A stretch of 64,000 bases of DNA from Dermabacter indicis (GTDB lineage: Bacteria; Actinomycetota; Actinomycetes; Actinomycetales; Dermabacteraceae): the NCBI GenBank assembly GCA_001403775.1, contig CYUG01000013.1, positions 1,300 through 65,299 of the forward strand. Direction: 5' to 3'. Positions within the stretch are counted from its first letter, which is position 1; each line of letters starts with the position of its first letter. The notes under the pieces are model-generated. The model searched no databases and was not told the origin of the DNA. It was given only the letters and a program-made list of their open reading frames with translations. The position numbers were made by a program, and so were the translations under genes. Shown one piece after another: positions 5,438-38,337 of the stretch.

Positions 5438-5599
5438 TCACTTGCTGGGGAGGAAGCGGTTGAGCTTCGTGCCGCACTTGGGGCACTCAGCCTTCGCCGC
5501 ACGGCGGCCCTTGTCGTTGACCTGGATGGTGCCGGTTGCTTCGTGCTTCGCGCGGCACTTCACGCAGTAGAACTCGCCCGTGTAGGTTTCGTCAGCCAT
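5438..5599 (-). CDS. Small zinc-ribbon protein, DUF5679-like
   Basis: This is a 53-residue protein with two CxxC knuckles, YCVKCRAKH near residue 10 and CPKCGTKLNRFL near the C-terminus, plus a basic KGRRAAKAE segment between them. This pattern matches the actinobacterial DUF5679 family of unknown function. The knuckles suggest one bound zinc and possibly nucleic-acid or ribosome contact, but that is inference. The start is the ATG at 5599, preceded by TAGGAG as ribosome-binding site. An in-frame start further upstream lacks such a site. A promoter with TATACA and an overlapping palindrome lies upstream. Confidence 0.8.
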   Translation of the reverse strand: MADETYTGEFYCVKCRAKHEATGTIQVNDKGRRAAKAECPKCGTKLNRFLPSK

Positions 5600-5680: not shown

Positions 5681-5799
5681 CGCGTAAGAGGCGAAGAAAC
5701 CCCACGTCAGAGACCTTTTTGGGAATGGTTCGCAAACATGGGTGCCCTAGGAGCGGCTTGGGGTCTGTTGGGGCTGCATCAAGGGGCGCAAAAAAAGGG

Positions 5800-5871
5800 G
5801 CGATCCTCCAGGGGCGCTTAACGCACGCGGGCCTTCCCCGCCCACGAGCGTCTGTTTTCCTGGAGGATCGC
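5800..5871. repeat. 13-bp inverted repeat, 46-base spacer
   Basis: GCGATCCTCCAGG at 5800-5812 is exactly complementary to CCTGGAGGATCGC at 5859-5871. The spacer is GC-rich and has no open frame I would trust. A long hairpin, a small RNA or a remnant of a mobile element are all possible; nothing decides between them. Confidence 0.6.
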
Positions 5872-5929
5872 TTCTCCATCGAATGTAGTGGCCTGCATCG
5901 CCCCGGTCAAAGCGGCGACGGGGAGCGAT

Positions 5930-6139
5930 TGTGGATAACAGCGGGGCTGTTGTGGACACCCCCTAAACCTGTGTGGAAAGTGTGTGTGGATAATTTGGCG
6001 TAGAACTCTAATGGTGTGCCTGACCAGGGGTTTCGGTGATGCGTGGTTGGGAATATTAATTTTTGATAACGCGTGTTGCACTTCTCAAGAGTGTGTCGCA
6101 TGCGGGACTCACGTCCTCGGTTCGCACGGCTTATCCACA
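5930..6139. other. Cluster of DnaA boxes with AT-rich patch
   Basis: Three exact copies of the DnaA box TTATCCACA occur: complement at 5930-5938 and 5985-5993, direct at 6131-6139. Two relaxed copies (TGTGGACAC at 5951, TGTGGAAAG at 5972) lie between the first two. At about 6048-6070 there is an unusually AT-rich run (GAATATTAATTTTTGATAA) in otherwise GC-rich DNA. The whole lies in the only long gene-free stretch of the window (5600-6182). There is no dnaA, dnaN or rpmH nearby, so it is not the usual actinobacterial oriC. A DnaA-titration site, DnaA-controlled promoter or secondary origin-like element are the options. Confidence 0.6.
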
Positions 6140-6182: not shown

Positions 6183-6725
6183 GTGCCCAATCGACCCTCT
6201 GAACGCGAACAGCTCCACCTCGATGGCATCCCTGAGCCCATCGAAATCGTGCGTTCCGCCCGTCGCCGAAAAACCATCACCGCACGTCGCAAAGGCGGAA
6301 CATTCGAATTGCTCGTCCCGGCGAGACTTTCCACACGCGAAACGCGCAAGTGGGCCCGAGACATGTACGCGAAGTACGGCAACCGCACCGAATCCGCGGT
6401 CGCGAGTGACGAGGACCTCATGTCGCTCGCGCTCGAAGTGAGAGAAAAGTACCTGCCGAGCGTGCCGCAGCCCTCGAGCGTGCGATGGGTGACGAACCAG
6501 GGGAAGCGCTGGGGATCATGCACGAGCGCCGATGGCTCGATTCGCCTCTCCCACGTCCTGAAAGACATGCCGCGCTACGTGGTCGAATCGGTTCTCGTGC
6601 ACGAACTCGCTCATCTCCTCGAGCCGAACCACTCGCGTGACTTTCGTCGGCTCGAAGCCTCGTATCCCGAGCTCGAGCGCGCCAACGGTTTCCTCGAGGG
6701 GTACTCGTTCGCGCAGGAAGACTAG
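6183..6725 (+). CDS. YgjP/WLM-like metallopeptidase (DUF45)
   Basis: This is a 180-residue cytoplasmic protein with the zincin motif HELAH in the context LVHELAHLLEPNHSRDF, and the family segment GKRWGSC before it. These mark the YgjP (DUF45, M48-related) group, whose physiological substrate is mostly unknown. I take the GTG at 6183, because upstream in-frame codons run back into the DnaA-box region and translate to non-conserved residues. No clear Shine-Dalgarno is seen. The nearest DnaA box ends 43 bases upstream of the start, so DnaA could in principle act on its promoter. Confidence 0.75.
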   Translation: MPNRPSEREQLHLDGIPEPIEIVRSARRRKTITARRKGGTFELLVPARLSTRETRKWARDMYAKYGNRTESAVASDEDLMSLALEVREKYLPSVPQPSSVRWVTNQGKRWGSCTSADGSIRLSHVLKDMPRYVVESVLVHELAHLLEPNHSRDFRRLEASYPELERANGFLEGYSFAQED

Positions 6726-35691: not shown

Positions 35692-36735
35692 CTAGCGCAC
35701 CTGGACGCTGCCCGCGGGCGAATCCTCGCTTGCCGCCACGATTTCGCCGATCACGGGGTAACCGGGAACCTCACCCACAACGAGAAGGCCGCCCGAGGTC
35801 TGCGCATCGGCGAGGAACAGCAGGTCCTCTTCCGTGATGCCAGAGCCCGCGCGAAGTGCGGGGCGCACCCAGTCGAGGTTGCGCCGCGTGCCACCCGAAA
35901 TGAAGCCACCCGCGAGCGCGTCGAGCGCATCGCCCATCGCGGGCACGGCCGCGCGCTCAAGAACCGCGCTCACGCCCGAGGCACGCGCCATCTTGTGCAA
36001 ATGCCCAAGCAGACCAAAACCGGTCACGTCGGTCGCGGCTTTCGCGCCGATCTCTAGAGCCTTCTTCGAGGCTTCGGCGTTGAGGGTCGTCATCCATTTC
36101 ACGGCTTCGTCGATGCTCGAGCCCGTTGCTTTGTGGCGGTTATTCAAAAGACCCACGCCAATGGGTTTCGTGAGCGTGAGCGGAAGTCCCACCTCGGCCG
36201 CGTCGTTGCGCAAGAGAGCGTCGGGCTTCGCAATGCCTGTGACGGCCTGGCCGTACTTTGGTTCGGGATCATCCACGCTGTGACCGCCGATCACGGGAAC
36301 GCCTGCTTCGCGGCCCACGTCGAGCCCTCCGCGCAGCACTTCCGAGAGCATCTCCATGGGGAGCTTTTCGCGGGGCCAGCCCACGAGGTTGATCGCGACG
36401 ACCGGCTCGCCGCCCATCGCGTAAATATCCGAGAGCGCGTTCGCGGCGGCGATGCGACCCCAGTCGTAGGGGTCATCGACGACGGGAGTGAAGAAGTCGG
36501 CGGTCGAGAGCACCGCGAGGTCCCCGCGCACGCGCACGGCGGCGGCGTCATCGCCATCGTCGAGCCCCACGATCACCGAGTCGAATTTCTGACCGGTGAG
36601 AGCCTTCACGGCATCTTCGAGTTCCCCGGGCGGGATCTTGCACGCGCAACCGCCGCCGTGCGCCATCGTTGTAAGGCGCGGATAGTTGCTGAAGTCGGGT
36701 TTGTCGGTGCTCTGGGGATCTTCGTTGATGTTCAT
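35692..36735 (-). CDS. selD: Selenide, water dikinase SelD
   Basis: A 347-residue enzyme that makes selenophosphate from selenide and ATP, the selenium donor for Sec-tRNA synthesis. The catalytic segment GGGCACK contains Cys30, Cys32 and Lys33, matching Cys17 and Lys20 of the E. coli enzyme; here it is Cys and not selenocysteine. Further family motifs are GLDDGDDAAAV, STADFFTPVVDDPYDWGRIAAANALSD and DVTGFGLLGHL. The ATG at 36735 follows a TAAAGT box by seven bases, so it is probably leaderless. A longer frame upstream would run antisense through the tRNA-Sec gene and is rejected. It is divergent from the tRNA gene. Confidence 0.94.
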   Translation of the reverse strand: MNINEDPQSTDKPDFSNYPRLTTMAHGGGCACKIPPGELEDAVKALTGQKFDSVIVGLDDGDDAAAVRVRGDLAVLSTADFFTPVVDDPYDWGRIAAANALSDIYAMGGEPVVAINLVGWPREKLPMEMLSEVLRGGLDVGREAGVPVIGGHSVDDPEPKYGQAVTGIAKPDALLRNDAAEVGLPLTLTKPIGVGLLNNRHKATGSSIDEAVKWMTTLNAEASKKALEIGAKAATDVTGFGLLGHLHKMARASGVSAVLERAAVPAMGDALDALAGGFISGGTRRNLDWVRPALRAGSGITEEDLLFLADAQTSGGLLVVGEVPGYPVIGEIVAASEDSPAGSVQVR

Positions 36736-36775
36736 GCTTTCCACTTTAAGCGTTTTCACTGGTAGATTCGTGCGC
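36736..36775. promoter_or_regulatory. Divergent promoters for selD and tRNA-Sec
   Basis: In 40 bases lie TAAAGT on the minus strand (36743-36748, seven bases before the selD ATG) and TAGATT on the plus strand (36763-36768, seven bases before the tRNA 5' end). The two selenium genes therefore share one compact control region. Confidence 0.45.
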
Positions 36776-36870
36776 GGAGGCGTACGTGTCCTGGTGGGCG
36801 CCCCGGTCTTCAAAACCGGTGATACCGAGTAGCTCGGTATGGTGGGTTCGATTCCCATCCGCCTCCGCCA
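36776..36870 (+). tRNA. selC: tRNA-Sec (anticodon UCA)
   Basis: A 95-base tRNA with the features unique to bacterial selenocysteine tRNA. The acceptor starts GGAGGCG and pairs with CGCCTCC, stacking on the T arm for a total of 13 base pairs. The D stem has 6 bp (GTGTCC with GGGCGC) and a four-base loop. The anticodon loop is CTTCAAA with UCA at 36810-36812, and a long variable arm has a 7-bp stem (TACCGAG/CTCGGTA). GTTCGATTC forms the T loop region, then discriminator G and encoded CCA. It reads the UGA in the formate dehydrogenase gene. Confidence 0.97.
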
Positions 36871-36981
36871 AGCTTTTGCGCCTCACTCTTTCGGGTGGGG
36901 CGCGCGTGGCACGTGGGGTTTTCTTTCCGACGCTTGTCACGCATCCGCGATCCCGAGTTTTGAGCGAAGGTGCCCCGCGAC

Positions 36982-38337
36982 ATGTCACGAACCGCGTCCC
37001 CGGCGTTAGGCGACGATCCGCGACGGCGGATCCCGCGCACGGATGCCCTGCTCGCGCTTGAAAAAGTCGAAGCGGCGAAGGAGCGCCTCGGTGAGGAGCG
37101 CGTGCGCGAGGTTGTGCGCGAGGCGCAAGGGCGTGCGCGGGCGGGGGAGATCGCGCCGGAAGAGGTCGAAGGTACCGTCATTGCCGCGCTCGAGAATGAG
37201 CGCGTGAGTGCCTTCACGCCCGTGCTGAACGCGACGGGCGTCATCGTCCACACGAACCTTGGGCGCGCACCGCTCTCACCTCAGGCTATCGAAGCCCTAG
37301 AGGCAGCCGCGGGCTACGTGGATGTCGAGTTCGATCTCGAGACTGGTCTGCGAGGCAAGCGCGGCGTCTCCACGCGCGAGGCACTCCTCAAGGCGTGCCC
37401 CGCGGCGGAAGATGCACTCGCGGTCAACAACGGTGCTGCGGCGCTCTCGCTCATCGCTACGACCCTTGCGGGCCCCGGGGCGGGGGAGCGGCGCGAGATC
37501 GTGCTGAGCCGCGGCGAGATGATCGAGATCGGCGCGGGGTTCCGCCTGACCGAGCTCATCGAATCCACGGGACCACGAATTCGCGAGGTCGGCACGACGA
37601 ACCGCACGCACCTCGCCGACTACGAGAACGCCCTCGGTGATTGCACCGCCGCGATCCTCAAGATCCACGCGAGCAATTACGTCATTAAAGGCTTCACGAG
37701 CGCCGTAAGCGTCGCCGAGCTCGGCGAACTCGCCCACGCCAATGACCTCCCGCTCGTGGTCGACATCGGTTCGGGGCTCTTTTCTCAGGAGCCGCTGCTA
37801 CCGAACGAACCGACCCTCACCGAAGCTCTCGACCAGGGTGCAGATCTCGTGCTCGCGAGCGGCGACAAACTCGTGGGTGGCCCGCAAGCCGGGCTCATCC
37901 TCGGGAAGAAAGAATGGGTCGAGCGCGTGGCCCGCCACCCCCTCGCGCGGGCGATGCGCGCCGATAAGCTCTTGCTCGCCGCGCTCGAAGCCACCGTCGG
38001 CGGTCCCACGCCACCCGTGCTCGAAGCGCTCCACACTAACCCCGACGCGCTCAAAGCGCGCACGGAAGCACTCGCGGGAGCACTCCGCGCACGCACTCAC
38101 GAACCGTGCGAGGTCGTGCCACACGATGGCCGTGTGGGCGGAGGCGGCGGCGCTGAAGTCCCCATCCCCGGGTGGGCGCTGCAGCTACCCGAGCGCCTCG
38201 CCACCGAACTTAGAGGCCATGAGCGGCCGATCATCGCGACGACGCGCGACGGTGCTTGCCTCATCGACCTGCGCTGCATTCCCGAAGATGAGGACGACGA
38301 GCTTGTGAGCGCGATCGCCGCGCTCCTCCAACGCTAG
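36982..38337 (+). CDS. selA: L-seryl-tRNA(Sec) selenium transferase SelA
   Basis: A 451-residue PLP enzyme that converts Ser-tRNA(Sec) to Sec-tRNA(Sec) with selenophosphate. Family motifs are NATGVIVHTNLGRAPL, VNNGAAAL, SRGEMIEIG, EVGTTNRTH, and the PLP-Lys loop ASGDKLVGGPQAG (Lys about residue 296, as Lys295 in E. coli). The ATG at 36982 is chosen; a GTG four codons upstream is possible. It lies 111 bases behind tRNA-Sec, with a 9-bp hairpin between (GCGCCTCAC/GTGGGGCGC near 36879-36905) that may separate tRNA from mRNA. It is followed closely by selB. Confidence 0.94.
   Translation: MSRTASPALGDDPRRRIPRTDALLALEKVEAAKERLGEERVREVVREAQGRARAGEIAPEEVEGTVIAALENERVSAFTPVLNATGVIVHTNLGRAPLSPQAIEALEAAAGYVDVEFDLETGLRGKRGVSTREALLKACPAAEDALAVNNGAAALSLIATTLAGPGAGERREIVLSRGEMIEIGAGFRLTELIESTGPRIREVGTTNRTHLADYENALGDCTAAILKIHASNYVIKGFTSAVSVAELGELAHANDLPLVVDIGSGLFSQEPLLPNEPTLTEALDQGADLVLASGDKLVGGPQAGLILGKKEWVERVARHPLARAMRADKLLLAALEATVGGPTPPVLEALHTNPDALKARTEALAGALRARTHEPCEVVPHDGRVGGGGGAEVPIPGWALQLPERLATELRGHERPIIATTRDGACLIDLRCIPEDEDDELVSAIAALLQR

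Follow-up and report, generated by a model that had tools for sequence, protein, structure and literature searches.

A cluster of DnaA boxes in Dermabacter indicis probably belongs to a DnaA-controlled promoter of a small hairpin RNA, with class-I-type activation as the most likely mode; both DnaA binding and transcription are predicted. The boxes, their conservation and phasing, a promoter-like element, the covariation of the RNA and the synteny of its locus are seen in the sequence itself, and this arrangement suggests that the initiator of DNA replication may also switch a small RNA.

A DnaA-box cluster away from dnaA

The window analysed here is a stretch of 64,000 nucleotides from a genome of 2.23 Mb in 17 contigs. 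It holds 10 matches to TTATCCACA with at most one mismatch, against 3.27 expected and a maximum of 9 in 100 shuffles. An earlier note on this DNA had pointed to three perfect boxes and two near matches within 210 bases, all of which are present (Table 1), and the AT-rich patch it described between them is there as well, with 39% GC at 6040-6075 against 64% for the whole window. Perfect boxes number 28 in the genome, compared with a single match to the control pattern read backwards, and at this density simple arithmetic gives about 1e-4 expected triplets within 210 bp genome-wide. One other perfect-box triplet in the genome's box list is equally tight: a second dense cluster, L005:6758-6904 (G000:C12:476757-476903), carries three perfect TTATCCACA boxes and one TTTTCCACA on a single strand, with a DUF222/HNH gene on one side and a phosphoribosyltransferase gene on the other. 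Three further boxes near dnaA are scattered across 1.5 kb.

Table 1. Positions in the window of the boxes, the predicted RNA unit and the adjoining genes
Feature	Position	Strand	Remarks
DUF5679 zinc-ribbon gene	5441..5599	-	PF18930, 8.5e-13; downstream of the RNA
Hairpin RNA gene, ~85 nt	about 5790..5875	-	both ends predicted
Sigma-70-like promoter of the RNA (predicted)	5882..5910	-	-35 TTGACC 5910-5905; 17-bp spacer; -10 TACATT 5887-5882
Perfect DnaA box TTATCCACA	5930..5938	-	28 bp before the -35 begins; centred ~-60 relative to the predicted start of the RNA
DnaA box variant GTGTCCACA	5951..5959	-	at -49 from the -35
Weak DnaA box CTTTCCACA	5972..5980	-	at ~-70; two mismatches to TTRTCCACA; left out of every statistic
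Perfect DnaA box TTATCCACA	5985..5993	-	at -83 from the -35
AT-rich patch AATATTAATTTTTGATAA	6052..6069	.	comparable patch in the two closest relatives
Perfect DnaA box TTATCCACA	6131..6139	+	opposite orientation; ~48 bp ahead of the putative YgjP start
YgjP-like metallopeptidase gene	6183..6725	+	PF01863, 3.5e-20; diverges from the RNA; putative GTG start

The note had also placed the cluster far from dnaA, correctly: dnaA-dnaN, together with boxes, lies on a different contig. This bears on its suggestion of a secondary origin-like element, which finds no support. A secondary or ancestral replication origin, in which the boxes would accompany an AT-rich unwinding patch, could draw on the patch beside the cluster and on the T-tracts that occur upstream of the array in relatives from several lineages (L058, L096, L337 and L343 among them). 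We nevertheless regard it as very improbable, given that no initiator gene adjoins the cluster, that the conserved core of the locus is the promoter and the RNA, and that 0.23-0.36 of the genome separates the locus from dnaA in the 11 single-contig relatives computed.

A candidate hairpin RNA with its own predicted promoter

Beside the cluster, the minus strand encodes a candidate hairpin RNA with a basal stem of 13 bp (5800-5812/5859-5871), an internal loop GGAAAAC/GCGCC, an apical loop GGGGAAGG and a 3' end of seven U (5796-5790). Of 21 pairs compared in 17 family sequences, 13 show compensatory changes, and class-wide, with 26 sequences from many lineages, 11 of 15 pairs do so. Cells with G-U pairs outnumber those with A-C pairs by 34 to 11, which favours the modelled strand, on which the structure had itself been picked. 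T-tracts follow the hairpin on its 3' side in the AT-rich f44 loci; no U-tract was seen in the four GC-rich loci examined for one.

The hairpin looks like an intrinsic terminator, and TTATCCACA is overrepresented genome-wide, so a chance box cluster next to an ordinary terminator has to be weighed. We find this scarcely credible: boxes, register, loop and covariation recur class-wide, and only some 8 nt separate the end of the promoter from the hairpin match on the minus strand, which leaves nothing to terminate except the hairpin transcript itself.

In the window, the RNA element stayed below the gathering score of every Rfam 15 family. Relaxed Rfam searches of 24 loci, the window's included, returned at the element just one weak opposite-strand match, to mraW in L097 (24.8 bits against a gathering score of 50; E 0.54). 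The 6C RNA and other Rfam families are likewise short conserved actinobacterial RNAs, and differ in that none of them reaches gathering here. Among open-licence PMC papers we found no report of the hairpin RNA, and the parts of PMC2864571 that deal with Actinobacteria, DnaA or hairpins describe no RNA that we recognised as the present one. The best reading is a previously unlisted actinobacterial small RNA, with transcription and function predicted, which would presumably act as a regulator.

Distribution of the RNA

A covariance model of the family RNA (R1) matched 20 of 248 genomes of the order, 19 in the family and one outside it, and recovered few divergent members beyond the family. The broader model R2, built from 26 sequences and used with strict filters and rough E-values, gave a single match in each of 125 of the 394 class genomes, covering 58 of 138 genera. 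Under these filters families f17, f19, f22, f35 and f37 had no match; that R2 matched nothing in several of the class's large families is a possible reason for the absence of the RNA from catalogues. A pattern combining promoter and loop was found in 60 of the 394 class genomes (0/394 for the backwards control). Only 24 of 30 loci retrieved with it passed a structural hairpin filter, so some of its matches are due to chance; the filter itself overlooked two members recognised by eye, L010 and L089. A wider contig scan returned at least 114 stretches, and among the 80 listed 24 passed the filter: 22 of 28 from actinobacteria, 0 of 49 from other phyla and 2 of the remaining 3.

In the 30 family loci retrieved, a hairpin with the GGGGAAGG loop stands upstream of YgjP, with a box array in nearly all. 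When YgjP was sought in 30 genomes it was present in 24, with the strict promoter motif upstream in just 3 of 27 loci. The system is patchy across lineages. Frankia-type hairpin RNAs (L117, L119-L127, L136, L175, L224, L229 and L237) likewise carry the GGGGAAGG loop, with an internal loop like GAGTAGANAACG / CACCAAAG, and polA adjoins the one in L120; they are perhaps a sister RNA family. Genome G342 has one RNA similar to the Frankia type and one R2 match elsewhere.

DnaA boxes upstream of the RNA promoter

We then counted boxes in loci that had been picked by family membership or by the RNA and its promoter, not by their boxes. A sequence within 260 bp upstream of the -35 was scored as a box if it departed from TTRTCCACA at no more than one base. 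Only distinct promoters were used, each with at least 200 bp of preceding sequence; L250 was grouped with the Dermabacteraceae on its promoter and Frankia-type RNAs were treated separately from the other lineages. With related loci taken as independent, here and in the second set below, the 35 promoters of Dermabacteraceae carry a mean of 2.6 boxes per 260 bp (0.066 in shuffles), and 31 of them have two or more, as against 0 of 371 control windows. The 43 promoters of other lineages average 1.98 boxes (shuffles 0.092); two or more occur at 27 (control windows 1/722) and none at seven, including both f8 loci, L100 and L101. All ten Frankia-type promoters have zero boxes, and 0 of 80 control windows have two or more.

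A second set of 63 loci, obtained from 70 R2 loci by removing seven with promoters already seen, contains relatives of the training sequences; a promoter with at most one mismatch was found in 57 (16/1260 at random positions in the same loci) and a perfect one in 40 (2/1260). At least one box is present in 49 of these 63 and at least two in 39; two or more were counted in 5 of 342 control windows. Of 18 f44 loci retrieved, 11 have no box within 260 bp and the boxes of the remaining seven are mostly off register; the -35 reads TTGATT or TTGATA in 17 of the 18. Because the RNA occurs without boxes in the Frankia type, in many f44 loci and in some others, DnaA control is not needed for it everywhere. 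Counts of k-mers with no preset motif also brought pieces of the DnaA box to the top, with GTCCACA in 73 of 125 loci against 5 of 125 control stretches. In 26 of the 125 loci an exact GCAGGTCA motif precedes the RNA promoter, 18 times at -130 to -133 from the -35; it is possibly the site of another regulator.

Conservation of box positions in relatives had been proposed as a check, and the boxes do recur at fixed registers to the -35. Favoured positions are -28, -39, -49/-50, -71/-72, -82/-83, -94, -105, -117, -144, -159 and -170. The boxes lie mostly in a single orientation across lineages, facing the same way as the RNA. When 79 same-facing boxes of other lineages were measured to the -35, a period of 11 was the best among 12 tried (R=0.85), and in the new loci 115 of 128 boxes share the orientation of the RNA and 13 are reversed, with R=0.68 at period 11. 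The sites filled in the window follow this pattern: the register of the 5930 box (-26 to -29) is used repeatedly in family and class, the -49/-50 site is likewise filled in many Dermabacteraceae (CTGTCCACA and similar) and the -82/-83 register of the 5985 box is shared by other lineages. The box at 6131 has an identical position in two relatives (YgjP identity 85% and 83%) and variants in two further ones. Adjacent boxes are most often spaced by 12 bp, which is a 3-bp gap; the E. coli double DnaA box has gaps of 2-3 bp (PMC11317965), and the actinobacterial DnaA-box consensus is given as TTGTCCACA (PMC4285127). The locus thus combines consensus boxes upstream with a conserved distance to the promoter, as looked for in DnaA-regulated promoters.

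These registers also bear on the possibility that the array is a datA-like sink, which would chiefly titrate DnaA or promote hydrolysis of DnaA-ATP, with the RNA promoter incidental or remodelling the locus by transcription. We consider this unlikely. In favour of this reading, and of the earlier suggestion of a DnaA-titrating locus, the boxes are dense and away from oriC, and the map position is fairly constant (nine of 11 single-contig relatives have it 0.33-0.36 of a genome length downstream of dnaA, and the remaining two at 0.23 and 0.70); we also count in its favour a passage concerning E. coli in PMC12371093. The registers, however, are locked to the -35 besides each other, which pure titration does not need and leaves unexplained, a conserved RNA is likewise unneeded, and at most five boxes were counted per locus.

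Neighbouring genes and the likely target of the array

To the left of the array lie a UvrD-type helicase gene with an HRDC domain, read as uvrD2, and then DUF5679 (-); to the right are the YgjP-like metallopeptidase (+), NUDIX (-) and Zincin_2 (-) genes. YgjP is present in 46 of 47 family genomes; in the close relative L010 (G041:C1:841129-841683) its match contains one internal TAG stop. Elsewhere in the window, a selenocysteine locus at 35692-38337 comprises tRNA-Sec (36776-36866), SelA (36970-38337) and an AIR-synthase-like (SelD-type) ORF.

Synteny was surveyed in 70 of the 125 R2 loci, 30 of them returned and 40 chosen by hand. Many of the stretches are short, so that the neighbour counts are lower bounds: near the RNA we found YgjP in at least 53 loci, Zincin_2 in at least 40, DUF5679 in at least 32 and NUDIX in at least 21, and one or more of YgjP, NUDIX and Zincin_2 in at least 63. 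YgjP and DUF5679 flank the RNA also in L058, L089, L096-L098, L100 and L101. DUF5679 was tried as the conserved regulated gene and rejected: 11 loci have an ECH match near the RNA and no DUF5679 match, and the RNA is therefore not simply a DUF5679 leader. An array unit without YgjP in L058 was similarly rejected when tblastn found YgjP there, as it did in L089.

The earlier note had proposed a DnaA-regulated promoter for the metallopeptidase. Of its three suggestions the promoter is the best supported, but the metallopeptidase looks like the wrong target. The minus-strand promoter of the RNA, an element absent from that note, is faced by both near matches and by all perfect boxes except the one at 6131, and in relatives the boxes keep a fixed register with it. 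We accordingly weighed the joint alternative that DnaA represses the RNA promoter or chiefly regulates the divergent YgjP gene, and judge it quite improbable. YgjP is the most frequent neighbour, it lies near the array also in L058, L089 and L096-L098, and in Dermabacter the 6131 box is close to its start. Against this, the majority of boxes point toward the RNA, and in L058 a separate ORF (605-1264) parts the array from YgjP. In six loci (L293, L295, L296, L301, L302 and L303) the available stretch contains no YgjP match, and a NUDIX gene is oriented toward the array, leaving the RNA as the sole evident target there; L301 has no box, and the other five carry two to four between the RNA promoter and the inward-reading NUDIX gene. 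As for repression, the boxes do not overlap the -35 or -10.

Discussion

We favour a model in which the boxes form an upstream regulatory array and the promoter would transcribe, leftward on the minus strand, a self-terminating hairpin RNA. DnaA, perhaps as dimers on adjacent boxes, would bind upstream of the -35 on one helix face and most likely activate RNA polymerase as class I activators do. Helical positions near -60, -71 and -82 are typical of such activators. Counted from the first base of the -35, the predicted RNA start is some 36 bp downstream, which would centre boxes at -28, -39 and -50 near these positions, and such centres, with the 12-bp spacing, lead us to prefer DnaA-dependent activation; we infer activation rather than repression from box position alone. 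If DnaA drives the promoter, RNA output should vary with the amount of DnaA or its nucleotide state, and hence with the replication cycle. The box at 6131, which faces the other way, may also contribute to the control of YgjP, the divergent gene.

More tentatively, and with less than even confidence, the RNA could be an ancestral actinobacterial cell-cycle small RNA, driven directly by DnaA. Its GGAUAAC-type internal loop and the invariant GGGGAAGG loop would then relay the initiation signal to other functions, with feedback on DnaA or an action on ribosomes as possibilities. The GGGAUAAC segment may resemble part of the 23S rRNA close to the peptidyl-transferase centre, and the GGGGAAGG loop is presumably complementary to a 23S rRNA stretch neighbouring it. 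The dnaA leader was tried as a target of the loop in L006, L282 and L283 and set aside, as its seven complementary stretches had no consistent place by eye. Should the model be correct, a widely conserved small RNA whose promoter has a DnaA array fixed to it would be a new output of the replication initiator and a handle on the coupling of replication to gene expression in actinobacteria.

RNAs that act on cell-cycle control or on DnaA reportedly include EcpR1 of S. meliloti and the dnaA antisense RNA of B. subtilis. With these and with the ncRNAs of Caulobacter the present RNA would share a coupling to the replication cycle; in Caulobacter, DnaA sites have been predicted near some ncRNAs of that single species (PMC5988900). 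The terms sRNA, small RNA and non-coding RNA are absent from the main text of a review of transcription by DnaA (PMC8203912). The E. coli loci datA, DARS1 and DARS2 are, like the array, non-coding clusters of DnaA boxes away from oriC, but the boxes here keep register with a promoter and an RNA gene. DnaA is a known regulator of protein genes. Those with DnaA-regulated promoters in E. coli include nrdA, polA and purH (PMC11317965), which resemble the present locus in having boxes upstream of the promoter and close pairs with a 2-3 bp gap. They differ from it in their product, which here would be a structured RNA, and in that the array described here stands in register with its promoter over many lineages of the class.
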